From positions 14,351,418 through 14,415,417 of the forward strand of contig OX381707.1 of the NCBI GenBank assembly GCA_947462335.1: a stretch of DNA of 64,000 nucleotides. The letters run 5' to 3'. Both the position numbers and the translations under genes were made by a program. The notes beneath the pieces are model-generated. The model saw only the letters and a program-made list of their open reading frames with translations, made no database searches and was not told the origin of the DNA. Below are positions 28,401 to 47,340 of the stretch, one piece after another. The DNA comes from Harmothoe impar. Taxonomy: Eukaryota; Annelida; Polychaeta; Phyllodocida; Polynoidae. How positions within the stretch are numbered: the stretch's first letter is position 1; each line of letters opens with the position of its first letter.

Positions 28401-31390
28401 CTCTTTTTTCTTGCTCTGGGCCCACCATTTTTGGAATTGGATTGTGTCCTTGCACGGTTGCCCAATCTCCATGTGTTGAAATATCAAAGGGTCCAATACC
28501 ATCCCCTTCCCTGCCCAAATGAGGTGGAAACATAGTTACCCTACCTAGAAAACCTAATTTAGCACAATTATTGATTTCCAAATTTAATAGACCTGCTAGG
28601 ATTATCATGATCTAAAACTCAGTTATCTATTTCATGTTTATTTTAATTTGGACGATTTATCCTGTTTTAGAGGAAAACATTACATATTGGTGGCAAAGAC
28701 TGTGTATGCCAGATGGTCACTGCATGTGTCAAAGGACTTGCTTAGGGGCAGATCATCAGTATTAGCATTAGCAGGCCATGAAGTGACCAGTAGGAATGTG
28801 CTATTGTGTGTCAAGGGATAGGCAGGTGATAATCCTAGGGATAGACGGGGATGGATAGGTGCATCTAAACAGGAGTAAGTATACCAAGGCTTCGCCTTGG
28901 CCATTTGAACAAACCTGTTATAAAGTATTGAAATTTAATGTATAGAATCAGAAAATACTAACATTTCTTTTAGGCTGAAGCCTTTACTTTATTGTTTTTC
29001 CTGAGACAAAATAGGAAACAAAAAGGCCAACTCTATTGATAGCATATTATATCACTCTTCACTACCCGGGGCTGGGGCGCATCCCACTCAGCCTGCAACT
29101 TCATGGGTGACAGCCCCAGTTGTGAACAAAAGATAGATCAGGCATCAATGGCTATTGACCTTACTGTATGTAAGAGATGTGTGACCAGACACATGAAAGG
29201 AGTACTCAGGGTGGAATCGATAATTGAAGATTGTGTCAAATTCTCGAGACAGCATAAGCTAATATATTCCCAGCAGTTTTTGTGGCAATCATTATCTTGA
29301 ACATGAGTTGTCACTCATAACTGAACATCATAGATAAGCTCTAGATACACTGTTTCCTATAATAATGACTACAATTTTTTTTTTAAGCAGATTTAGTTTT
29401 TAAAAAAATAACACGGATAATTGTGTAATGTAGATTTAGTTCCGATTTTCAAGGTCTGTTTTCAGTTTTGAGTAAGTGATGGAATTATCAAGAAGCCAGG
29501 GCCAAAATGTTCCATTTAGAAAAATGGAATGGTTTCCCTGGCAACCAGGAAGTGTCAATCTGCCATACAAACGTTCCATTTACATTCCAAATATGAAAGG
29601 TTAGCAAGATGGAATAATTCTCAGAAGACTACTGTATTCTCCTTAAAAAAGTACCCTAAAGCACTTCTAGACATCTTTCACTGGTGGCCAAAACCAGAAC
29701 TAAAATCTCCCACGAAGGTCTCTTTCCACGTGTTGATCCACATATCATCCTAAACTCCTGAAGAACATGTTATCTTTGAAATTAATTTCATATTTACTTT
29801 TAACATGTGGCAGATACAGTGGATTACTAATAATTGAAGAAGAGAAACTATAAAGTAAGATGTGGAATTAATTTTGGATGGGAGCAAATGAAAACCTCAA
29901 TCTTTTCTGACAATATATTTTGAATCGGGAAGTATCTGCGATAGTTGCTCTAGCAAATCAGGCAACAAGATAAAGTGTAGAAAGGGATGGGTATTCAAGA
30001 GAACGTGTGGAGACAATCCTATGGACATTTCTACATTTAATACTAGACGTTTATCTTCGGAATGGATCAGTTCAGAATCAAATATGCTGAACTACTACCA
30101 GATAACCACAGGAATAAGAAATACTGTATATACACAGGTAGGGATTATGATAATCTCTCAATATAATGTCGGTGAGAGCATCATCCAATCACAATCAATT
30201 TATTGAAGTTACTGCAATTATTTAATTACTTTGTTAGTACAAGTTGTGCATCAATGTCTTAATGTTAGTAAGAGCACTATCATGGCACGACCACACATAA
30301 CTATGACACCCGGGAGTAGCAGGCGTGATGGGGTTATGGTGTTTTAACCAAATTAACCAGGAGACCTATCTCATCTAGAAAGACAAATAACAACAGACTT
30401 GAATGCTTCATGCCTAGTAACTTGGTATTAAGGGGCCTAGATTATAACTACCCTCTCCTTCCCAACACATAACCTGTTGATTAGGGATGAATTCCTTCAG
30501 GCTGTAAACATTTTGGTACACGTAATGGTGCTTCATGACGGGATTAATTAATTAATGATACTTCATGACAGTATTAATCACATGTTAATGTGACATTATC
30601 TGTGATGAAGCATGCAGGTGCAGGGAGAACTAAGGTCCTTCTCCAAGGGCCTTTAGCATCTTGTAATCACACTATATGAGTTATACTCTCTAATAGTCTT
30701 CACTATGTAGTACTGCAAGTCACTCAACACATGAGTGTGACAATTGAATCGATGAGACTTTCACTGTAGAAGTATGAGTCTAAATATTACCTTAGAATAT
30801 CCCGGACACCTTAATTCACAGTTATCCCACATGATAAGCTGACCAGTTGTCCATTGTTGATAAGAGAAACACTAAAGTTGTGCTCTGCCTACCTTTCTGC
30901 AATTTGCAGATAGGTGTCCACCTCAGCCCCAATCTGTTTAGTAAATGCATAGACTACTATTAATTTATTCAGATATCTCCTTTTTCACTGATAGGTTGTG
31001 AACATTTGGTATGGCCGACAAAGGAACGTTTTTCACTCCAGGGGGTGAAAACTATTAGGAAGTCTTTTCATAGACAAGCCTCAATAATATCTGGTGTTAT
31101 AGACAAACTTCACTAGTTTTCCTTACAAAGCATTCCCTAAAAGCCAGTAACTTGAAGTGGAGGAGAGCGATATAAGCAAAATATTGAATAGACTCCTGTC
31201 TTTGACTTTCTCTCCCTTAATGCCTCAATCACGCGCACATAGGTTAGCATAAACCTATTCATATGAAGGCTGGACAGAGTGTTAACATCCCAGATTTCCA
31301 AAGAGAAGAGAATTCATGTCTGTGAATTGTTCTCATGAATATCAGTTTATATATCCTATTTGAAATAAACATAATATCAGCAGAAACGAT
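25440..31390. repeat. Tandem array copy B
   Basis: This unit of about 5.95 kb is followed directly, head to tail, by copy C. It matches C along its whole length with few differences by eye. Its part at 30345-30420 (CTCATCTAGAAAGACAAATA) is the empty site of the retrotransposon, and GGCTGTGCAGGG at about 26250 is the empty site of the 108-bp element found in C. It contains no gene that I can recognise; the ORFs it shares with C are short and carry no known motif. Confidence 0.85.
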
Positions 31391-32214
31391 AGAATCCATG
31401 GATTGGTACACCATGGGGAGGGACATTATCTGAGAGCATCCATGAATATCAGTATTCTTGCACTGTTGAAAAATATTAGAGCTTTATATGTTATAACAAC
31501 AGACAACTGCAAGGGATCAGATTCCATTAAGACTAACCTATTTTCCTGTTGTATAAGGAAGCCTCTGATGGCCGGGACAATAGCCCATTTCTATACATGA
31601 CCACTGTGGTGTATTCTATTTATTGCTATGCCGACACTACAGTGTCTCTGTTGGATACAATGCTCAACTATCTCCCATTTATTATCCGTAGCTGAGTTGA
31701 TCCCAGAGGGCATAAAAACCATAGGATGGTCCAAACGATAGAAGAAAAATAAAATCCATCAAGCCAAAATATGGGAAAGTAGGACCAAATGGTCTGGTTG
31801 ACCATGCTCAAGGAGGGGGGTCAGTCCTTCGGGAACAATAGAGCAATTACCTAAGTAATTGTCTGATTTGTGAGCCCTCCTGACAGCCGCTATCTATTTA
31901 GAAAGAATTACCAGCAAGATACATTTAAGAAAAAGGCACTATTATGGGTATTCTGTGCGAAGGGATGTCTAGGGACAATTCCAATTTAAGCAAAACAAAT
32001 GCTCTAAAGTTGCATAACGGCTGTGCTCGTTTCTCATGAAAACAAGGTATAAGGCAGCTAGCATGAGTCATGGATAATTTACAGTCCATGCAGTATGGAA
32101 AGTATGAGTAAATTGTCATGTAAATGTCAATAGTATATTGAATTGTTAAATTTAATGAGAGAACCTCCATGGTTTGACCTCACATGTTTATGACATCATG
32201 GAGTGGCAGGCTGT

Positions 32215-33836: not shown

Positions 33837-35677
33837 TGAGGCTGGAGTCATCCATTACTACCTGAGCCAATGCTTGCGATTACCCTCATTGTGTGCAATC
33901 TCTGTTGGGTGAGCGATTAATTTAATGAAGAAGCTGGGACTTTTAGAGCCAGTGTCAGTACTCTGAGTGGTGCCATGATGTAGTCACAAGTCTTTTTTTT
34001 CAATTTCACTGAGGAACATTTCTGCACTTTCAGAGAGCATTCCTAGGTCACAGAATTGATGATTTAGTTCAATTTTGTGGCTAAATCAATTAGGGGTCCT
34101 CTAGCCTTTTGAGCCATCAGCTACATTTCAATCCTTACTTTGAAATGAGCACTCAATGGTTTGTGCACTGCCGGTGGTGACAGATAAACTTGACACTGAC
34201 CCCTTCTGTCCTCTGAGAGTGGCCCAGAATTGAGCTGTGGTGTAGGGCTGCTGTACTGACCATTACTCAAGCTACCCTGATGTTAAGCTGCTCCCACACT
34301 AAGCTGCTCCCGCTGAATGGCATTTTAAGACCCCAGTTGCAGTTCGTGAATTAATTTACAATCTTTAATAAGAGGTTGAGTCCCCTGGGAGAAGACTCAA
34401 CATGTGCTCCCAATATGGGTCTACTGGCGGCTTGAGTCCGGTAGGTTTGCTCTTTTTTCTTGCTCCGGGCCCACCATTTTTGGAATTGGATTGTGTCCTT
34501 GCACGGTTGCCCAATCTCCATGTGTTGAAATATCAAAGGGTCCAATACCATCCCCTTCCCTGCCCAAATGAGGTCGATACATATTTACCCTACCCAGAAA
34601 ACGTCATTTAGCACAATTATTGATTTCCAAATTTAACAGACCTGCTCGGATTATCATGATCTAATACTCAGTTATCTATTTCATGTTCATTTTAATTTGG
34701 AGGATTTATCCTGTTTTAGAGGAAAACATTACATATTGGTGGCAAAGACTGTGTATGCCAGATGGTGGTTGCATGTGTCAAAGGACATGCTTTGGGGCAG
34801 ATCATCAGTATTAGCTTTACCGGGCAATGAAGTGACCAGTAGGAATGTGCTATTGTGTGTCAAGGGATAGGTAGGTGATAATCCTAGGGATAGACAGGGA
34901 TGGATAGGTGCATCTTAACAGGAGTAAGTATACTAAGGCTTAGCCCTGGCCATTTGAACAAACCTGTTATTAAGTATTGAAATTTAATGTATAGAATCAG
35001 AAAATACTAACATTTCTTTTAGGCTGAAGCCTTTACTTTATCAATTTGCCTGAGACAAAATACTAAACAAAAAGGCCAACTCCATTGATAGCATATTATA
35101 TCACTCTTCACTACCCGGGGCTGGGGCGCATCCCACTCAGCATGCAACTTCATGGGTGACAGCCCCACTTGTGAACAAAAGATAGATCAGGTATCAATGG
35201 CTATTGACCTTACTGTATGTAAGAGATGTGTGACCAGACACATGAAAACGAGTACTCAGGGTGGAAGCGATAATTGAACATTGTGTCAAATTCTTGAGAC
35301 AGCATTAGCTAAATTATTCCCAGCAGTTTTTGTGGCAATCATAATCTTGAACATGAGTTGTCACTCATAACTGAACATCATAGATAAGCTCTAGATCCAC
35401 TGTTTCCTATAATAATGACTACAGATTTAAAAAAAAAACAGATATAGTCTAAAAAGAATAACACGGATGATTGTGTAATGTAGATTTAGTTCCAATTGTC
35501 AAGGTCTGTTTTCAGTTTTCAGTTACTGATGGAATTCTCAAGAAGCCAGGGCTTTAGAAAAAATGGAATGGTTTCCCTGGCAACCAGGAAGTGTTATATG
35601 TGCCAATTTGCCATCCAAACGTTCAAAGCACAGCGTTTATTATAGTTTCTTAAAGCGGCATTCTCTGCACCGAGCGT

Positions 35678-35787
35678 AGAAGATGGGAAAATTGGAGTTG
35701 AGAAAAATTTCAGTTCATTTCTCCAGGATTGATTATAACTGTAGTTGACCCTATCTTTATGCTTTTCCTTTACAAGTCTGATTGAAT
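35678..35787 (+). repeat. 110-bp patch identical to part of copy D
   Basis: The 110 bases are identical to 46816-46925, although the surrounding sequence corresponds to a different part of the unit (29550-29660 in B), where B has other sequence. Just before it, 35620-35677 is about 58 bp with no source in the window. Together they look like a templated repair insertion that replaced about 120 bp. Confidence 0.8.
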
Positions 35788-36488
35788 CTTTCACTGGTGG
35801 CCAAAACCAGAACTAAAATCTCCCACGAAGGTCTCTTTCCACGTGTTGATCCAAATATCATCCTAAACTCATGAAGACCATGTTATCTTTGAAATTAATT
35901 TCATATTACTTTTAATATGTGGCAGATACCTTGGATTTCTAATAATGGAAGAAGAGAAATTATAAAGTAAGATGTGGAATTAATCTTGGATGGGAGCAAA
36001 TGAAAACCTCAATCTTTTCTGACAATATAATTTGAATCGGGAAGTATCTGCGATAGTTGCTCTAGCAAATCAGGCAACAAGATACAGTGTAGAAAGGGAT
36101 GGGTGCTCAAGACAATCCTATGGACATTTTATATTTAATACTAGACCTGGGCGTTGATTTATCTTCGGAATGGATCAGTTCAGAATCAAATATGCTGTAC
36201 TACTACCAGATAACCACAGGAATAAGAAATACTGTATATACACAGGTAGGGATTATGATAATCTTTCAATATAATGTCGGTGAGAGCATCATCCAATCAC
36301 AATCAATTTATTGAAGTTACTGCAATTATTCCATTACTATGTTAGTACAAGTTGTGCATCAATGTCTTAATGTTAGTAAGAGCACCATCATGGCCCGACC
36401 ACACATAACTATGACACCCTGGAGTGGCAGGCGTGATGGGGTTATGGTGTTTAAACCAAATTACCCAGGAGACCTAGCTCATCTGATG

Positions 36489-36498
36489 CAAGATGGCC
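36489..36498 (+). promoter_or_regulatory. YY1-like box at the 5' end of the retrotransposon
   Basis: CAAGATGGCC begins at the fifth base of the element. AANATGGC is the known YY1 core in this orientation, and human L1 carries the same kind of box close to its 5' end, where it helps set the transcription start. Here it is a motif match at the matching position, so an internal promoter is plausible but not shown. Confidence 0.45.
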
Positions 36499-36952
36499 AC
36501 CACGTAGGGCGGACGTGTTGACCGGGGCGCTCTCGACTAACAGCCTTTTAATGGGATTTCCTTAAGACCTATACTTCTATACAGGAAGATAGTGTCATAC
36601 ACACTAAGGAGCCTACATGCACCTACTAATCTCGGGATAAGGAGCTACTTACCAAGAATTAGGAGGAATTTTCTTCCAAGAAGTGAAGACACCGGCAGGA
36701 GGTGAGCGATTATAGGAGCATTACGCGCACTCCTACATACATGTTACAGCACCTGTGTACCACCGGCCTTACACCTGGGGCAGCTCACCTGTATTATTAT
36801 TATACCTGTGCCATACTCTAATGCCTTAGCGCCTACCCCGTCGCACCAACACCACTCTCCATATACCACTGCCGTTCATACAAAGCCCGTAGGTACATTA
36901 TATTATAACCAATTATAGACTAATAGTTTTTTGGACATTATAAGCCACTACC

Positions 36953-38449
36953 ATGTTGGGAGAAGAATTACCGACTACCCCCAATGGGGCAGAGGGAGAA
37001 CAACAAAGGGAAGGGACCAAAAGGGTTACCACAGCCTTATTCAATAGGCTTGCAGCCTTTATGCCTTCAGCCTCACCCCCTAAAGAAACCCCTCCTCTTC
37101 AGAGAATACCTGAGGTAGACGGCTCTGTTGTCCCCACCCATGGTTCAAGAACTATTAAAGAGCTAGAAGGGGTATTCTACACGAAGTTTACAGTTATGAC
37201 TGATACCCTGAACATGCTTATTTCCAATACTAATAAAGTATTAGGGGCTCATAGAGAAACCGGGGATCAACTAACATTGGTTATGGATGGGCTGAACGCG
37301 CATAGTAGTCGTATCGAAGAAAACTACGACGAGATTGCTGAGATCAAGGTCAAAGTAGCTGACCTAGACATGCTGAAGGGCAGGGTCGAAAAGCTAGAGC
37401 AGATATGTGATGATTTAGTTTGTGAAAGCAATACTAACCGAGTGATCATCCAACAGCTCCGGAAAGACAAAGAAGATGCATTGATACATCAGAAAAGATG
37501 TAATATCATCCTCAGAGGTCTGAAGGAATCCACCTACGACACTCCAGCTGCTGCGGTTACTGCCCTACTTTCTGACCTTGGAACTGGTCTCACCAGCGCA
37601 GATTGCATTGATGTTCACAGAATGGGTCGCCCCCCACCTGGAGGACCCAGTGACACAAACCCGCGACCTATCATGTTTACCTTCGCCAAACAGCAGCACA
37701 AGGGTGTTCTCTACAAGAATGTAAAGAAATTAAAGGACATGAGGGACAGATGGGAAGGTTTATCAGTGGGGGACGACCTTACTTTTGCACAGCAAAATAC
37801 CTTTAAGGACTTAAAGGTGGTGGCTGCAAACGCCAAAGCCCTCAACCACAACGTCAGGCTAACACCAAAATCGGTCTCTATAGACAACCAATCCTACACC
37901 CATGACACATTAGGGACCCTCCCTGATGCCCTCAAACTCTCAGCTATAAAGACAATACGTTATGACAATGACAGCGTCATTACCTTCCAGTCTAAACATA
38001 GCATCCTATCGAACATGTACGAGGCGCGTGTAAAATATGACGGTTTTTATTACACCAGTGTGGAGCAAGGTTTCCAACATCAAGCTGCCCTTGCCTCCCA
38101 GGAACCATCACTAGCTGCCCGCATCCTTTGCACTGACTGCCCGTACGAGGCCAAAAAGTACACCAGAGGTCTGAAACCACATGTGAACTGGGCTGAAGAC
38201 AGGCAGATCGAAGTGTTAGAGGCCCTTCAATTATCAAAGTTCACAATCAACCAGACCTGCCGTGATTATCTTATTGGGACAGATGATTATGATCTGGCTG
38301 AATCCACCTCAAATTTAACATTTGGTACAGGCTACAACCTCATGGATAAAGAAAAGAACTTCAATATAAACAGACCAGGTAGAAATCTGTGTGGACTGAG
38401 CCTCCAGAGGGTAAGGGTGGCCATAACTGCCCTGGACATACGTAGATAG
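36953..38449 (+). CDS. Retrotransposon ORF1: coiled coil, L1-ORF1-like region, NADAR domain
   Basis: The protein has 498 residues. The start has A at -3, and an in-frame TAA lies at 36941, so this is the first possible ATG. Residues 1-70 are a loose, proline-containing leader. About 75-180 is a heptad-rich coiled coil (for example LKGRVEKLEQICDDL). Residues 182-318 resemble L1 ORF1p: RCNIILRGLKES, then VHRMGRPP, RPIMFTF, and a C-terminal part with NVRLTPKSVSIDNQSY. Residues 343-492 are a NADAR/YbiA-like domain: LSNMY (352-356), YDG (362-364), EQGFQ (371-375), P397, AKKYTRG (400-406), W413, R417, KF (429-430), LIGT (440-443), FGTG (457-460), NLCG (478-481) and RVRVAI. The family usually has D and W where this protein has N454 and F457. 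The front half should bind element RNA. NADAR proteins are N-glycosidases acting on riboflavin intermediates or ADP-ribosylated guanine; its role here is unknown. Confidence 0.9.
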   Translation: MLGEELPTTPNGAEGEQQREGTKRVTTALFNRLAAFMPSASPPKETPPLQRIPEVDGSVVPTHGSRTIKELEGVFYTKFTVMTDTLNMLISNTNKVLGAHRETGDQLTLVMDGLNAHSSRIEENYDEIAEIKVKVADLDMLKGRVEKLEQICDDLVCESNTNRVIIQQLRKDKEDALIHQKRCNIILRGLKESTYDTPAAAVTALLSDLGTGLTSADCIDVHRMGRPPPGGPSDTNPRPIMFTFAKQQHKGVLYKNVKKLKDMRDRWEGLSVGDDLTFAQQNTFKDLKVVAANAKALNHNVRLTPKSVSIDNQSYTHDTLGTLPDALKLSAIKTIRYDNDSVITFQSKHSILSNMYEARVKYDGFYYTSVEQGFQHQAALASQEPSLAARILCTDCPYEAKKYTRGLKPHVNWAEDRQIEVLEALQLSKFTINQTCRDYLIGTDDYDLAESTSNLTFGTGYNLMDKEKNFNINRPGRNLCGLSLQRVRVAITALDIRR

Positions 38450-38684
38450 GTTAATATGTACTGTGACAGCCTTACACTATAGCGCCCGCAGACGACAATT
38501 GGCTATCTACGATGGCCGGCCAAGTCGGTATATTTTGGTACGAAGGTAAGCGGGGCTACAGTATTATGCAAGTTCTACTCGGTAACACACCGCCCGCCCT
38601 CCCACCCCTCAGCCGCCACCACCACTAACCACTGCCACCAACACTCAGTACAGACCCGCCGCTGCATATACACACACCTCAGCA
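38450..38684 (+). other. Spacer between ORF1 and the SGNH ORF
   Basis: The spacer is 235 bp and rich in C and A. An AAG/GTAAG splice-donor-like site lies at 38543-38550 and a pyrimidine-rich ACACACACCTCAG acceptor-like site ends at 38682, two bases before the next ATG. The SGNH frame stays open upstream to 38586 without an ATG, with a proline- and threonine-rich translation. Confidence 0.5.
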
Positions 38685-39389
38685 ATGTACAGGGTTCTAG
38701 TAGCCACAGACAGCCAGGGGTTTGGCCTCCAGGATCGTATATACGAGAGACTAGAAGAAATAGCAGCAAAAAACATGGCTCAACAGGATGTCTATGTTAA
38801 GGTACTACCAAAATCAGGTACAACAGTAGAATCCTTATTGCCATGGGTAATAGAAGAACTCTCTAAAGATAACTACGACCTACTTATTACAGCTATTGGC
38901 ATAAACAATCTCTCCGAGAAAAATGCAAATGGCACTGTCACTCCTATATTTCAAGAGGTGGCGAATCTAGTTGATGTTATGACTGACAAATATCACTCCT
39001 ATAAGAAGGCAATACTTGACCTACCAAATGCTCCGGCCGTTGCATTTGCTCAAATCGTAGGAATTAAATACATACGGTACAATCAAGCGCATGGGAGGTC
39101 ACTAAATGGAGTACCGGTTACGCTACATCCATATCCACTACAACAAGCTGTCATAAATGAGGGGATAAGGCACTTAAACATTGTATTGGTGAACATTAAC
39201 GATGAGTCAGGTGTAGTGGGGCCGTGGTGGCAAAGTACTGTCCATCACTTGAAGGGCCGTAACAGATATGACAGATACAGGATGTTGTGGGACGGATTAC
39301 ATGCTGAATCGAAAACCAAGAAAACCTGGGCCAAAATGGTGGCCAATAGCATCGTGGCCACACGAAGGAAGATGTCACAGGCAGAATAA
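38685..39389 (+). CDS. Retrotransposon middle ORF: SGNH/GDSL-type hydrolase
   Basis: The protein has 234 residues, typical for a single SGNH domain. Block I is VATDSQG with the likely nucleophile Ser10. Block II has Gly45 in KSGTT. Block III is GINNL (72-76) with Asn75, preceded by the usual hydrophobic strand YDLLITAIG. Block V is WDGLHAE with Asp203 and His206, the D-x-x-H pair. All four expected catalytic positions are therefore present. SGNH enzymes hydrolyse ester bonds, often acetyl groups. Esterase domains are known in CR1- and L2-type ORF1 proteins, where they sit on the same chain as a coiled coil; here the domain has its own ORF and ORF1 carries NADAR instead. No signal peptide or membrane segment is seen. 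How it is translated is unclear: ORF1 lies upstream in another frame, so re-initiation, an internal entry site or a spliced transcript would be needed. Its substrate is unknown. Confidence 0.85.
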   Translation: MYRVLVATDSQGFGLQDRIYERLEEIAAKNMAQQDVYVKVLPKSGTTVESLLPWVIEELSKDNYDLLITAIGINNLSEKNANGTVTPIFQEVANLVDVMTDKYHSYKKAILDLPNAPAVAFAQIVGIKYIRYNQAHGRSLNGVPVTLHPYPLQQAVINEGIRHLNIVLVNINDESGVVGPWWQSTVHHLKGRNRYDRYRMLWDGLHAESKTKKTWAKMVANSIVATRRKMSQAE

Positions 39390-40698
39390 CTAATGCTGTA
39401 TAGTCTCCTGCTACTAATATATATTAAGATGCACCTAACCCACTAACAGAGACCTTTGTCTACCCCCCCCCCCTTAAAACTAATCAGAATATATCCAGAA
39501 TAGTACCGGTAAATACAGCATATAGGTATATACACAGAACCCCTGGAGAAAGCAAGTGACAGTTGATGAGGCACTACCCATGAACGCCAGGAACAATACT
39601 TAGAGGATGCCGGGGTGGGTTGCAGACTTAATGTGTTAGTGACACTATGTCGAGTACAGCCTACTCCCTTATCCTTCCGCCACCTGATTAAATATAATCA
39701 ATATATTATATATTGAATTAACTGAAAAATAGAAGTTTACCATAAATATACACATACCTATATTTGTCATACCGTGATAGTTTCACTAGACAAGGATTAT
39801 GGATATGCTGTATAAGCCAAGTAACTAACATAGAACCTAACCTAACTTGCCCTACTGTGACATTATCACTTAGCAAGTACCCAGAATTACTAACATTTTC
39901 TGAAAATTAACACTTAATCGTTCACCTAAAACTAACACATGTAAGCCCCCCCCCTCCCAAAAATAATACAGGCATGCATGATACACTCCATACCAAGGGC
40001 TAGTTGCCCGTTCTCATATGGAATATAATATCATGAAACTTACCCTGTACTCAAAAATACAAATGCACAACATAGATAGCTGGACTGTATATATTACTTT
40101 AATGAGAAAAAGGACAAATGACATCTATGCTCTTAAAGCTATGTCCTTGTTAATAAAACACATTGGACTTACCGGTAGTTACGGTAGTTATACGGTATCA
40201 GACAGCGCTCAACAATAAGACTCTCTTCCCTTAAGGATTAGCGCTAATTCCCATAAGGAAAAGCTTGATTGTATTAAAATACATTGCTTGAATATAATGT
40301 AATAAGTATACATTTTGTAACAACAACTGTTATTACTTTTTGATATAAATGTTCTCGTTTAACTTTATGTCTTCTCTATTCCTTTGAATCACCCCACCAC
40401 AAACTGCTGACGTGGCTTCTACGCTATACTGAAGTTATCCCCTCATCCCAAATTACCCTGTATATATGCTTCACATGGAATACGGTAGGAATTCTTATTT
40501 ATACATTTCCATCGTTAACAGGGCGCCCCCCCCCTCTTCCCGTCCTCCCCCCCCCCCCCCTACATATGAGCAAAATTTGCCCATCCTTTTTGGCCCCTCA
40601 CCCAGGCAGCTCTGGAAGCAAAGTCCTGGTTATTAGAAGCGACATGGGGGTGGGTGAGCTGGGGAATAGTGTGTGTGTAGGGAGTTGGTCTACCGGGG
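39390..40698 (+). other. Long spacer before ORF2, with poly-C tracts
   Basis: The spacer is 1.3 kb, long for a non-LTR element. It contains C runs at about 39463, 39948, 40527 and 40548, and GT-rich sequence just before ORF2. A 66-codon ORF at 40018-40218 has no recognisable motif and is probably chance. The region may hold a second promoter or an internal ribosome entry site; nothing in the sequence proves either. Confidence 0.5.
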
Positions 40699-43593
40699 AT
40701 GGGGACTGTGATCTCTTCTCTTAACCTTACGGGGTCTGGAGGTCAACATTTATGCCACCTTAATATTAGAAGTATTTTCTCAGAAGAAACTTTTGATGAT
40801 TTTAATGTTTTTATGAGAAATAAGGAAATTGATTGCCTCACAATCTCAGAAACCTGGCTAAAAGATAGGGTCCCAGATAATCACCTCTCAATTGCTGGTT
40901 ATAATTTTATAAGATTGGATCGACAAATTGATAAAAAATGTGGGGGCCTTATGGCATATGTTAGGGATGATATTACTATTGGACAATCACTTACTGAACA
41001 ATATAGCGTCAGTGAAGCTGATCTAGAAATGCAGGTGTTTACCATAAAGAAGGGCCAGAATAAAAAGCTGACAGTATTTAATGTGTATAGGCCTCCATCA
41101 GGTAAAGTCAATACTGCTCTGGATATCATTGTTGGCAAATTGAATCATTTCTTTCGCTTTTATCAGAATAACGAGGTGATAGTCCTTGGTGACTTTAACA
41201 TAAATTATAAATTCACTGCTGAAGGGGATGGGAAGAAGTTAAGACAAAATATGACAGCTCTGGGGCTTAAACAACTAATAAAAGGACATACACATTTTAA
41301 TCCAAACGGAGAGCCAACCACCATTGACTTAATATTTACTAACTCCCCTCATGTAAAAAATTCCGGAATAATCACCCCTGGTCTTAGTGACCATGAAATG
41401 GTTTTTATGACTCGGGAACATACTCATATCCCTTTGGAAAAACTTTCCTTCACAGGGAGGAGTTACACTCATTATATAACGGACAATTTTACCATGGGTA
41501 TGAAAAACTCCAACTGGGATGAACTGTGGAATTGCCAATGCCCTGAAAAAGCATGGGAGATTTACATCACTCAAATAAGTTTCCTGTTGGACATAACTTG
41601 CCCTATAAAAAACTTTAACTTTAAGCAAAAAATGAAGCCCTGGTTAGATAGACACATTATCACCCTGTTAAAAGATAAAAATTATGCCATCAACAAATAT
41701 AGGAGAACCCAGAATATAGATGATGGACGTATATCAGACTATCTTCAAGGTCTGGCAAGAGAAGCATGTAGGGAGACAAAGCAAGGATATTTCCAACAGA
41801 AATTTGAAAACAATAAAAAGGAACCAAAAGACTATTGGAAAGCCATTAATGAACTAATTAACCCTCGCCCAAGAAATATAACATTTAATTTAATAGACCA
41901 GACAGACAACACCCCAATAGCTAATGCTGATACAGCAGACTTCATTAATACATTCTTTGCAGAAATAGGCTCTAAACTTGCAATAAACATGAACTCTCCG
42001 TGGTCCTACCAAGGTGAGGAGCCAGACAGTGTATTCAGCTTCAAAGTATGTAATGAAGAAGAGATCGTCCCTCTCATCAGGAAAATCAAAACAGACAAGT
42101 CATCGGGTGTAGAACACATTTCCACTAAGGCTCTTAAAGATGCAATGCTTGCTATCCCTCTCTTAATGGTACACATAGTTAACCTGGTTATCAAATCTTC
42201 CAAATTCCCAAGTAAATGGAAAAAAGCCCTAGTATCCCCCCTCCCAAAAGGGGGTGATGCGTCAAATGTCAGTAACCTACGTCCAATTTCCATTTTACCC
42301 CTTCCTTCAAAAATAACAGAAAAAATTATGCACAAACAAATTATAACATACCTTAACCTAGAAAATATATTAAATGATAACCAAGATGGATTCAGACCTA
42401 ATAGAAGCACAATAAACAGCCTATCTAAATTAACTGACAATATCTACCGAGGATTAAATTTAGACCAGTGTACAACAGCAATATTTTTAGACTTCAAAAA
42501 AGCGTTTGATACTTTAGACCACAAAATTTTAGCAAAAAAAGCAGAAAAAATAGGATTTGACCAAAGTGCAGTAGCACTGGTCTCTGACTATCTCAGTAAT
42601 AGGAAACAGTCTACTAAAGCTAATGGAATCATCTCACAAGAGAAATTATTAACATGTGGCGTCCCCCAGGGATCTGTATTAGGACCTCTACTATTTTTGC
42701 TATATATAAATGACATGAACTTCTCCCTAGAATACCTAAATTGCCAACACTATGCAGATGATACAGTAATCTATATTAACCACCCCCCAGCTGATCGTAC
42801 AATTGAAAGAAAAATTAACTCTGATTTAGACAAAATTTCAAAATGGTGTTTAGATAATAAACTATCCCTTAATACTAAAAAAACAAAAGCAATGAATTTT
42901 TCTACAAAACCTTTGGATAACCTTTGGATAAAACCTACTTTAACAATCAATGGTGATATAGTAGACTTTGCCCCTACATACAAATACCTTGGAATGACGC
43001 TAGACAACAAACTTAATTTTAAAAGGCACATTGATATTTTGGAAAAAAATGTGGACTATAAAACATATTTGTTTAGACATTCGAGAAAACACATGACAGA
43101 AAAGGCAGCAGTAGATGTCCTCAAAACCATGATTCTTCCTGTAACTGACTATGGGGATATCTGCTACATGGTTGCCAACAAAACCCACATTGTAAAGCTA
43201 CAAAATGCTATAAACAAAGCTTTAAGAACTGCTCTGTGCCACCGTGGCACAATAAACACAGAAAAACTATTAAAAGTTGCTGAGTTAAACTATATGAAAG
43301 ATAGAAGGGAGCAGCATCTGTCACACAAAGCATTCATACAATCACTCAACATCACCCTCATAGATAGAAGACCCATACGAACCAGGGCTCATGACGAAAG
43401 GTTGCTAAAGGTCACTAGGCCTTTAAACCCTGCATACCGTAAAAGCTTAGAGTACAGATTATCTACAAGATGGAATTCTTTTGAGATTGAAACAAGATCC
43501 ATTCAAGAAGAAAGTCAGTTCAGGCAATGGAACGATGGTATATATAAAGCTAAGATTGAGACCTTTCCAGATATCCCCAGGTTTGAGCGCTGA
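40699..43593 (+). CDS. Retrotransposon ORF2: endonuclease and reverse transcriptase
   Basis: The protein has 964 residues, a usual size for CR1-group ORF2. An in-frame TAG at 40678 leaves this ATG as the start, in a good context (GGGATGG). Residues about 16-240 are an exonuclease-endonuclease-phosphatase domain: LNIRS (Asn22), SETW (Glu51), YRPP (130-133), GDFN (Asp165, Asn167), TTIDLIF (Asp210) and SDHE (Asp231, His232). Residues about 480-760 are the reverse transcriptase: LRPIS, DGFRPNRST, LDFKKAFD (Asp598), GVPQGSVLGP and the catalytic YADD (Asp687, Asp688). The following YKYLGMTLD and the helical region to the end are typical of the thumb and C-terminal part. No RNase H domain or CCHC zinc knuckle is seen. 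The enzyme would nick the target and copy element RNA from the nick. All catalytic residues are intact, so the copy could be active. Confidence 0.97.
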   Translation: MGTVISSLNLTGSGGQHLCHLNIRSIFSEETFDDFNVFMRNKEIDCLTISETWLKDRVPDNHLSIAGYNFIRLDRQIDKKCGGLMAYVRDDITIGQSLTEQYSVSEADLEMQVFTIKKGQNKKLTVFNVYRPPSGKVNTALDIIVGKLNHFFRFYQNNEVIVLGDFNINYKFTAEGDGKKLRQNMTALGLKQLIKGHTHFNPNGEPTTIDLIFTNSPHVKNSGIITPGLSDHEMVFMTREHTHIPLEKLSFTGRSYTHYITDNFTMGMKNSNWDELWNCQCPEKAWEIYITQISFLLDITCPIKNFNFKQKMKPWLDRHIITLLKDKNYAINKYRRTQNIDDGRISDYLQGLAREACRETKQGYFQQKFENNKKEPKDYWKAINELINPRPRNITFNLIDQTDNTPIANADTADFINTFFAEIGSKLAINMNSPWSYQGEEPDSVFSFKVCNEEEIVPLIRKIKTDKSSGVEHISTKALKDAMLAIPLLMVHIVNLVIKSSKFPSKWKKALVSPLPKGGDASNVSNLRPISILPLPSKITEKIMHKQIITYLNLENILNDNQDGFRPNRSTINSLSKLTDNIYRGLNLDQCTTAIFLDFKKAFDTLDHKILAKKAEKIGFDQSAVALVSDYLSNRKQSTKANGIISQEKLLTCGVPQGSVLGPLLFLLYINDMNFSLEYLNCQHYADDTVIYINHPPADRTIERKINSDLDKISKWCLDNKLSLNTKKTKAMNFSTKPLDNLWIKPTLTINGDIVDFAPTYKYLGMTLDNKLNFKRHIDILEKNVDYKTYLFRHSRKHMTEKAAVDVLKTMILPVTDYGDICYMVANKTHIVKLQNAINKALRTALCHRGTINTEKLLKVAELNYMKDRREQHLSHKAFIQSLNITLIDRRPIRTRAHDERLLKVTRPLNPAYRKSLEYRLSTRWNSFEIETRSIQEESQFRQWNDGIYKAKIETFPDIPRFER

Positions 43594-44181
43594 GTCCACC
43601 CCCCCCCCCCTGACCACATGGCTCCTGCTTTTCCACACACACCCCTAGCTCACCCTACCCGAATGTATAAGAGGCAAAACCATCATTCAAGTATGCCCTT
43701 GCATAAATGAAACCCATATATAATGGTGTCTGTTATATGACACACACCCTTGTATACCGGGTAATATATGTATTCTGTTATTTCTAACTGAATACACACT
43801 AAGTGTCCAAAAACCACCAATCGCTCACTCTCTATTACTCTACCCATTGCTATTACCTAGCATGGGTTCTATCCTCTTTATTTTTCTCTCTTTCCTCTAA
43901 CGAGAAAAGAAAAGAAACCATAAGGAATCATGTATATTAACCTAAACAATAGCCTCTGGCTACTAGACATTTTAATAAATTCTAACCCTTCATAATACTT
44001 TATAGCTTGTCAGGTAAGATATACATAGAAGGACCATGCTCCTACATGAGCATGTCCCTCCTATATACTTTGTTTCTACAAAGGCTTGATTGCCTTTTAT
44101 TACCTCCGCTCATCGGAAATTGCTGGTGTCTGTATAACACAGTCTTCTAGGCCATACATTCCTGCCAGGATAAATAAAAGA
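43594..44181 (+). other. Retrotransposon 3' untranslated region
   Basis: It starts with a run of ten C at 43600 and is AT-rich afterwards. A hairpin lies at 44031-44057: GGAC and ATGCTC pair with GAGCAT and GTCC around a 6-nt loop, with one bulged C. CR1-, L2- and Una-type elements use a 3' stem-loop of this kind for recognition by their reverse transcriptase, so this is the best candidate for that signal. Confidence 0.55.
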
Positions 44182-44203
44182 AATTCAAATCAATTCAAAT
44201 CAA
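44182..44203 (+). repeat. Retrotransposon 3' tail, AATTCAAATC repeat
   Basis: Two full copies of the 10-bp unit AATTCAAATC are followed by a partial copy that merges with the target-site duplication. A short tandem tail in place of poly(A) is usual in the CR1/L2 group. Confidence 0.9.
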
Positions 44204-45215
44204 ATCTAGAAAGACAAATAACAACAGACTGGAATGCTTCATGCCTAGTAACTCAGTATTAAGGGGCCTAGATTATAACTACCCTCTCCTTCCCAACACA
44301 TAACCTGTTGATTAGCGATGAATTCCCTCAGGCTGAAAACATTTTGGTACAAGTTATGGTGCTTCATGACGGTATTAATTAATTAATGATACTTCATGAC
44401 AGTATTAATCACATGTTAATGTGACATTATCTGTGATAAAGCATGCAGGTGCAGGGAGTACTAAGGTCCTTCTCCCAGGGCCTTTAGCATCTTGTCATAA
44501 CACTATATGAGTTTTACTCTTTAATAGTCTTCACTATGTAGTACTGCAAGTCACTCAACACATGAGTGTGACAATTGAATCGATGAGACTTTCACTGTAG
44601 AAGCATGAGTCTAAATATTACCTTAGAATATCCCGGACACCTTAATTCACAGTTATCCCACATGATAAGCTGACCAGTTGTCCATTGTTGATAAGAGAAA
44701 CACTAAACTTGTGCTCTGCCTACCTTTCCGCAAGTTGCAGATAAGTGTCCACCTCAGCCCCAATCTATTTAGTAAATGCATAGACTACTATGAACTTATT
44801 CAGATATCTCCTCTTCCACTGATATAGGTTGTGAACATTTGGTATGGTCGACAAAGGAACATTTTTCACTCCAGGGGGTGAAAACTATTAGGAAGTCTTT
44901 TCATATACAAGCCTCAATAATATCTGGTGTTAAAGTCAAACTTCACTAGTTTTTCTTACAAAGCATTCCCTAAAAGCCACTTACTTGAAGTGGAGGAGAG
45001 CGATATAAGCAAAACATTGATTAGACTCCTGTCTTTGACTTTCTCTCCCTTAATGCCCCAATCATGCGCACATAGGTTAGCACAAACCTATTCATATGTA
45101 GGCTGGACAGAGTGTTAACATCCCAGATTTCCAAAGAGAAGAGAATTCATGTCTGTTAATTGATCTCATGAATATCAGTTTATAAATCCTATTTGAAATA
45201 AACATAATATCAGCA
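44204..45215. repeat. Tandem array copy C, part right of the retrotransposon
   Basis: This continues 36484 and matches 30381-31395 of copy B. TAGAAAGACAAATAACAACA follows directly after the element. It joins copy D without a visible gap. Confidence 0.85.
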
Positions 45216-46133
45216 GAAACAATATAATCGATGGATTGGTACACCATGGGGAGGGGCATTATCTGAGAGCATCCATGAATATCAGTATTCTTGCACCATT
45301 GACAAATATTAGAGCTTTATAAGTTATTACAACAGACGACCCCAAGGCATCGGATTCCATTAAGACAAACTTTTTTTCCTGTTGTATAAGGAAGCATCTG
45401 ATGGCCGGGACAATAGCCTATTTCTATACATGACCACTGTGGTGTATTCTATTCATTGCTATACCGACACTACAGTGTCTCTGTTGGATACAATGCTCGA
45501 CTATCTCCAATTTATTATCTGTAACAGAGTAGATCCCAGAGGGTATAAAAACCATTGGATGGTCTCAACAAAAGAAACAAAATAATATCCATCAAGCAGA
45601 AATATAGGGAAATAGGACAAAATGGTCTGGTTGAGATTCCTTAGGGAGAGGAGTCCGTCCTTCGGGAACAATAGAGCAATTACTCTAGTAGTTGTCTGAT
45701 TTGTGAGTCCAACTGACAGCCACTATATCTATTTAGGAACAAGATACCAGCCAGATACATTTAAGGAAATAAGCACCATTATAGATACTCTGTGTGAAGG
45801 GAAGTCTAGGGATAATTCCAATTAAGAGTGGAATTTATTTGTATTTATATCAGCAGAACAAGTCCACTCTACTACCATACTTGCATCTCTCAAATAAAAA
45901 TAATACAGTAAAGTTGCACTATGGTTGTGTCCATTTGTCAAGAAGACAAAGTATAGGGCAGCTTGCTTGAGTCTAGGATAGAGTTCACGCCATGCGGTAT
46001 GGGAAGTGTAATTAAATTATCATATAAATATCAATAGTAAATTATTAAAATTGATGAGAGAACATTGAGGGTTGAACCTCACATCATGATGAAACCCTGG
46101 AGTGTCAGGCTGTGCAGGGTAATGGCATTTTAA

Positions 46134-46453: not shown

Positions 46454-47340
46454 TTAACAAGATCCACCGCTATCTCATCTAGCAAAATAAATGACAACAA
46501 GGTAGAATGCTCCATGCCTGGTAACTGGGTAATGGCTGCCTAAGTGTCATTCAGGGGCCAATGTAGGCCTTAATCAGAACCTGACGACTACTCTGTCCTG
46601 CACCATACTTAACCCATTGGTGTCAGATAGATGCCCTAAGGTGGTAAACATGTTGGTCCATGTTATGGTATATTGATCACATCAATAGTCAGTATGGAAC
46701 AACCTTTGAGCAATTACTTATTTTATACATACATACTAAAGTACACTGAATAAGGACAACTGGGCTTCAAACACATTCAAAGTCAATAGAGTTTGATTAA
46801 TGCTGATACCATCTTAGAAGATGGGAAAATTGGAGTTGAGAAAAATTTCAGTTCATTTCTCCAGGATTGATTATAACTGTAGTTGACCCTATCTTTATGC
46901 TTTTCCTTTACAAGTCTGATTGAATATATCAGTACACTATGGCGACCAAGTTAGTAAGATGATTACTGTTCATAATGTGGGAATTGTTTAATCAGGCAAA
47001 ATCTGAAGCTGAAAGAAACTGCTTTATGTCCACCCCTAACATGAGATATCATGTCAAATGCTATGGCATTGGACATGGAGCATACAACATGCTAATATGT
47101 AGAAGAATAGCTACTACATTTTTTGTACCCTCTCTTTTCTCCTGGTGTGGATTACCATGCAGGTTCAATGTCATTGAACAGTTAAAGCTGTGAAGTGCTG
47201 CATAGTACTTTTACACTATATGCCATTTGACATCATGATGCATGAATGCATCTTCAGCTTCTCTCAATGGTATATATCCACCTAATGGGGGTCATCATTA
47301 TGTTTTAAAACGCAGGCCTGATACGTCACTCAACAGACTT

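Follow-up and report, generated by a model that had tools for sequence, protein, structure and literature searches.

The window is the whole stretch of 64,000 nucleotides of Harmothoe impar DNA that was analysed (C4:14351418-14415417 of a genome of 1.51 Gb). It contains on the forward strand a complete LINE (non-LTR retrotransposon) of about 7.7 kb at positions 36485-44203. The element has three open reading frames in the same orientation: ORF1 (36953-38449, 498 amino acid residues), a middle ORF (38685-39389, 234 residues) and ORF2 (40699-43593, 964 residues). The initial annotation had described ORF1 as a retrotransposon protein, and the endonuclease and reverse transcriptase ORF found downstream of it, together with the bounds of the element, place it in a real LINE.

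The region 25441-45826 of the window contains a tandem duplication of several kb with an identity of about 93%, and the LINE sits in one of the two copies. It has no counterpart in copy one, which thus serves as a natural control for the bounds 36485-44203 in copy two. The left flank (29673-30376 against 35786-36484) is 92.7% identical and the right flank (30373-31990 against 44204-45826) 92.6% identical, with a rise to 95-96% at the junctions. At the empty site (30373-30376, + strand) both flank alignments overlap by the same four bases, ATCT, which are found at the 5' junction (36481-36484, + strand) and repeated at 44204-44207; the junctions are otherwise clean. The ATCT repeat may be a target-site duplication, then no longer than 4 bp, or it may reflect microhomology. 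A near-identical copy, L061, is located on another chromosome-sized contig, with 99.6% identity to positions 36487-44198 over 7716 columns. The window element is therefore full-length, young and recently moved.

The 3' tail of the element (44180-44203) is composed of short AAATTCAAATCAA-type repeats. Its 5' end (36485-36510) reads GATGCAAGATGGCC, which we take to resemble the YY1-site start of human L1. A direct repeat of 117 nt, 98% identical (35677-35793 and 46815-46931), flanks the LINE and lies outside it. Searches of the window for Rfam families reaching the gathering score and for tRNA genes found none.

ORF2 was recognized by its Pfam matches, RVT_1 (E=1.2e-36) and Exo_endo_phos_2 (E=8.8e-13). 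The middle ORF codes for an SGNH/GDSL-type esterase-like protein with Pfam GDSL matches below the cutoff, in which the SGNH fold and the Ser/Asp-His motifs are both present. Between the middle ORF and ORF2, about 1.3 kb (39390-40698) contain no long ORF and have runs of C, as after ORF2. In another locus, L065, two small ORFs are located between ORF1 and ORF2 (L065:3211-4775), and the second of them aligns with the SGNH-like ORF at 22% identity, with DRRG in place of the DS motif.

Architecture and putative active site of ORF1

The predicted structure of ORF1 has a coiled coil, an RRM, a CTD and a NADAR domain in a single frame. The coiled coil (residues 68-181, positions 37154-37495) is modelled by AlphaFold2 as a single long helix. 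It is followed by the L1-ORF1p-like RRM and CTD (residues 184-316, 37502-37900), assigned from the predicted fold, and by the NADAR domain (residues 342-497, 37976-38443), assigned from both profile and predicted fold. The match to the Pfam NADAR family (PF08719, residues 347-491) scores 68.4 bits against a curated cutoff of 35.1 (E=1.1e-18) and covers nearly the full profile, and structure comparison of the AlphaFold2 model finds the YbiA/NADAR fold for the C-terminal domain. No ORF1p or RRM family was matched in Pfam at E<=1; the architecture is of the L1 RNA-binding type (coiled coil, RRM, CTD) by its predicted fold. The initial annotation, made from the letters of the DNA, had proposed both the NADAR end and its fusion to a coiled coil and an L1-ORF1-like RNA-binding region. 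Profile and fold agree with it on the first point, and the predicted fold of the 498-residue ORF on the second.

The active-site residues were compared in 53 non-identical LINE-type rows, numbered as in the oomycete NADAR and with residue roles taken from PMC11543638 (section 12). Both glutamates contacting the distal ribose are retained: E43 (E371 of the window protein, codon 38063-38065, + strand) in 53/53 rows, and E125 (E450, codon 38300-38302, + strand) in all 51 rows that reach this position. Residues K75 and W89 are invariant in 53/53. The position of K50, equivalent to K95 of the E. coli C7 NADAR, is occupied by alanine in 25/25 rows of the window family (A378 in the window protein, codon 38084-38086, + strand) and by lysine in 23 of the 28 LINE-type rows outside it. 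W133 is replaced by F or Y in 23/23 window-family rows. At position 130, 18 of these 23 rows have D and the other 5, the window copy among them, have N. R79 and R93 are variable, with the R93 column ambiguous in the window family due to a one-residue insertion. All nine residues (E43, K50, K75, R79, W89, R93, E125, D130 and W133) are kept in the L062-type rows (5/5), while at least one is missing in every other LINE-type group.

In the E. coli C7 NADAR, K95 is required for efficient hydrolysis of guanine-ADPr (PMC11543638). Since this lysine is replaced by alanine throughout the window family, it is doubtful that the window protein is an efficient guanine de-ADP-ribosylase, an activity that appears more plausible for families like L062. 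For the window family, the replacement also weakens the suggestion of the initial annotation that the element may undo ADP-ribosylation of its own nucleic acid or of the nicked target. The loss of K50 lowers the claim of guanine de-ADP-ribosylase activity and leaves membership in the NADAR superfamily intact. The clade motif CPYEAK and the residues R, P, G, N, C and G of RPGxNxCG are invariant in 11/11 aligned window-clade proteins. Because motifs such as CPYEAK are invariant, the pocket of the window family is, to judge from its residues, remodelled and not decayed.

Selection on the domain and its distribution in the genome

A NADAR profile search of the genome gave 3484 first-look candidates, of which 150 were scored; all 150 are above the cutoff, and 125 of them have an open frame with 300 residues or more. 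The figure of 150 loci is a lower bound, the lowest scored having 88 bits and the window copy (68 bits) lying outside the set. The search with the whole ORF1 gave 86 scored matches: beyond the window copy, two at 98-100% identity, many at 69-87%, and a further block in which the greater part of the protein aligns at 37-44%. The window element represents one lineage within this large set of LINE-type ORF1s with NADAR in the genome. An RT ORF follows in the same orientation in all six loci that were read (8.5-10 kb each), which include L061, where the ORFs were read without a Pfam scan, and L065, where ORF2 is split over two frames; for rows beyond these six the LINE-type call is made from ORF1 alone. 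NADAR, whole or cut, was found in 30/30 fetched loci of the window family and in seven other ORF1 groups by our own grouping.

The rate of substitution was assessed in 23 of the 30 fetched window-family ORF1s, four truncated and three duplicate loci being excluded, and dN/dS was taken from pairs with dS of 0.25-2, the rest of the 253 pairs being saturated or too close. NADAR has a median dN/dS of 0.031 (16 pairs), compared with 0.063 in the coiled-coil/RRM part (17 pairs) and 0.065 in the N-terminus (31 pairs). Five close NADAR pairs of the family have values of 0 to 0.28, and the 98% copy, L033, has a NADAR dS of 0.095 with a dN of 0.006. The NADAR medians in two other families are 0.119 (30 pairs, maximum 0.259) and 0.088 (9 pairs, maximum 0.205), and a single pair of one further family gave 0.089; the L065-type and L066-type groups had zero usable pairs and are outside these results. 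The value for the middle ORF is 0.053 (13 pairs), and for the stand-alone NADAR genes 0.234 (6 pairs). These ratios show strong purifying selection on NADAR in the measurable families, make it unlikely that the domain is without function, and suggest that the element needs it.

It is important to consider whether NADAR could be a passive passenger, captured by chance. No point in support of this was found, and the presence of the domain in all fetched loci of the window family and in seven further groups, with median dN/dS of 0.03-0.12 in the measurable ones, makes it hardly credible. Chance insertion into this one copy, which the initial annotation had named as a possible outcome, is ruled out by the low dN/dS and by the occurrence of the fusion in many copies and families of the same genome.

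The same values bear on a second possibility, that the NADAR of the window clade is a non-catalytic binder of ADP-ribose, RNA or protein, which aids assembly or localisation of the RNP. The lowest dN/dS within ORF1, the invariant clade motifs and the changes at K50, W133 and, in part, D130 would all suit such a protein. However, a mere binder has no obvious need for E43 and E125, which are invariant, and more of the site is kept in other families, up to all nine residues in the L062-type. We consider a binder unlikely, although it has a substantial share of the probability.

The four best NADAR scores in the genome (L001-L004, 150-178 bits) belong to single-ORF proteins of 183-268 residues, which keep K50, D130 and W133 in 4/4. 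Three of them (L002-L004) lie within 30 kb on C21, at about 30.056-30.086 Mb. These four are probably genes of the host, and they may be donors or counterparts. Very long ORF1s are found in L063:3-2936 and L064:3-3707 (frames of 978 and 1235 residues, both cut at the locus start), where low-complexity linkers separate the RRM-like part from NADAR.

Protein searches with P0001 matched solely P0002, and an alignment search of proteins gave nine matches, among them P0004, an unnamed, full-length NADAR ORF1-like protein of 507 residues that spans 98% of the first query row at 27% identity. In the public protein P0005, a pfkB-type domain (PF00294) precedes a NADAR fragment that shares 93% identity with the L062-type ORF1; a piece of a LINE was probably absorbed into this gene model. 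In two scans of viral contigs, for which A1 and P0004 were used, there were 33 and 4 pattern matches, none of them confirmed, and no viral relative was found there.

ORF1 module and ORF2 lineage

Matches of the window ORF2 in the PDB cover RT regions only. The best is 8c8j, named RNA-directed DNA polymerase, which aligns with residues 453-814 (E=2.9e-13), and none of the eight matches listed is a chain named LINE-1. In contrast, ORF2 of locus L066 aligns with human L1 ORF2p from end to end (E=1.8e-101, residues 6-1170). Assignment of the window element to the L1/Tx1 LINEs is thus not supported; from the appearance of its motifs, it may be a CR1/L2/Jockey-group LINE. On the 3' side of the L1-type element, L066:6609-7673 contains an ORF that by eye is like a seven-helix receptor, as would fit an animal host.

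The ORF2 proteins of five non-L1 elements (L065 in part) match one another in blastp with 215-451 bits, but match L066 with only 62-81 bits, in the RT part. The ORF1 proteins behave differently: L066 scores 82 bits with the window protein, 107 with L062 and 89 with L065, while among the non-L1 proteins the scores are 75.5 bits (window with L062), 90 (window with L065) and 144 (L062 with L065). For the ORF1s of L063 and L064 mostly the NADAR part alone aligns, with 28-76 bits. The relatedness of ORF1, as judged from these scores, does not follow the superclade split of ORF2. When NADAR is set aside, hhalign still matches the L1-type ORF1s (among which L030 is placed with L066 from its NADAR sequence only) to three non-L1 groups in their RRM-CTD-linker part, with a probability of 97.6-98.5%, against 0.1-0.4% for six negative controls; the results for L063 and L064 are mixed (1.1% to 95.6%). 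We infer that the RRM-CTD-NADAR module was either swapped between the superclades of LINEs or is of great age, with frequent losses.

In the NADAR tree, 25 of the 37 rows have the LINE label (P0002 and P0004 being included without RT evidence). The label needs three changes, though the supported branches force only one. None of 200 bootstrap trees has a single change, that is, the LINE rows on one side of a branch, and the 5-95% range is 2-4 changes. The stand-alone genes and the oomycete NADAR fall among the LINE rows. The tree leans against a single origin of the LINE NADARs, although its supported branches are compatible with one.

Possible role of NADAR and comparison with known systems

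The ORF1 proteins of LINEs package the RNA of the element, as is established for L1. Since ORF1p would coat the RNA, NADAR would be carried on the RNP, where it would meet RNA, cDNA and target DNA. The targets could be ribosyl or ADP-ribosyl groups placed by host ADP-ribosyltransferases on the element RNA, the cDNA, the nicked target or bound proteins. In the families with a full active site, NADAR would most likely be a hydrolase, with which the element itself counters ADP-ribosylation by the host. In the window family, where E43 and E125 are kept and K50 and W133 are changed, a changed substrate or ADP-ribose binding would be expected. As a whole, a young non-L1 LINE with a selected NADAR on its RNP, acting as a hydrolase in full-site families and with an altered pocket in the window family, is our tentative proposal, held at somewhat below even chances.

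A more specific proposal would be that NADAR on the RNP, as a hydrolase, strips ADP-ribose from guanine of the element RNA, the cDNA or the nicked target DNA, against guanine-modifying host ADP-ribosyltransferases of the CARP-1/pierisin kind, that the NADAR-ORF1 was exchanged between L1 and non-L1 LINEs, and that the pocket of the window clade has changed since. According to the available parts of the sources, NADARs reverse guanine-N2 ADP-ribosylation (PMC11543638), and in animals this modification of DNA is known from butterfly pierisins and from an activity in six clams (PMC11209040, PMC8053099). In the same two papers clam CARP-1 is proposed as a component of innate immunity and such enzymes are proposed for defence. 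The parallel of clams and butterflies may not apply to the host ADP-ribosyltransferases here, and this combination as a whole appears rather unlikely. It is important to note that some NADARs active in vitro on ADP-ribosylated DNA gave cells no protection from DarT1 (available text of PMC11125620), so neither fold nor activity gives function.

NADAR could also process RNA of the element itself, such as ends that are NAD-capped or ribosylated, in normal replication and without host conflict. Processing of an RNA intermediate is suggested for NADAR retrotransposons in the accessible part of PMC12477816, the nematode protein SNA-3, with three NADAR domains, works in RNA metabolism (PMC9303266, in part), and the domain is fused here to an RNA-binding-type ORF1p. 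With these points counted, such a role is still improbable. Clearance of soluble ADP-ribose derivatives that serve as host alarm signals has been proposed for viral NADARs, chiefly those of phages (available sections of PMC9503650). However, the tether to an RNA-binding-type protein favours a substrate on the RNP, and for the NADAR of animal RNA viruses the same text prefers macromolecular targets, which makes soluble signals quite improbable here.

Enzyme domains are rare in LINE ORF1 proteins, and NADAR is a second enzyme-type domain. Its presence in LINEs of two superclades, with strong purifying selection in the measurable families, points to a role of ribosyl or ADP-ribosyl chemistry in retrotransposition. 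The role of animal NADARs, a question posed in the available part of PMC11125620, becomes testable by a retrotransposition assay with two point mutants. If the counter-defence proposal is true, nucleic-acid ADP-ribosylation would be a host response to retrotransposons. A corollary of the more specific proposal would be that many animal NADAR database proteins with no assigned role are LINE ORF1s.

The initial annotation knew of no described LINE with this domain. This does not hold: the available part of PMC12477816 places NADAR in the Gypsy Pol of Ectocarpus and a YbiA-family NADAR in ORF1 of several Crassostrea gigas Tx1 LINEs. The other full-text literature, screened mostly by title and the opening of the abstract and a scope outside which most subscription papers and Repbase notes lie, gave no link of NADAR or YbiA to retrotransposons, and nothing on NADAR in non-L1 LINEs, on selection or on exchange of ORF1; in PMC12832006, Nadar is the name of a university. 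The oyster elements, compared here by their description, have NADAR inside ORF1 as the window element does, but its ORF2 is not of the L1/Tx1 type; their nearest match in this genome may be L066. The Ectocarpus elements are likewise retrotransposons with a NADAR domain.

Human LINE-1 ORF1p (PDB 2ykq, 2yko) has the architecture and fold predicted for the window ORF1, with coiled coil, RRM and CTD, but lacks NADAR, and the window ORF2 is not L1-like over its length. The oomycete NADAR (8bau) and E. coli YbiA (2b3w) have the fold, the ribose-contacting glutamates and W89 in common with the window NADAR. However, they are stand-alone proteins with K50 and W133, where the window family has A and F/Y. 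A LINE-encoded SGNH-type esterase, as in the window element, is also found in ZfL2-1 of the CR1 clade, and was called unique among ORF1ps for its enzymatic function in 2013 (PMC3905857, in the part available). In ZfL2-1 this esterase belongs to ORF1p, while the window element codes for its esterase-like protein in the middle ORF and has NADAR in ORF1.
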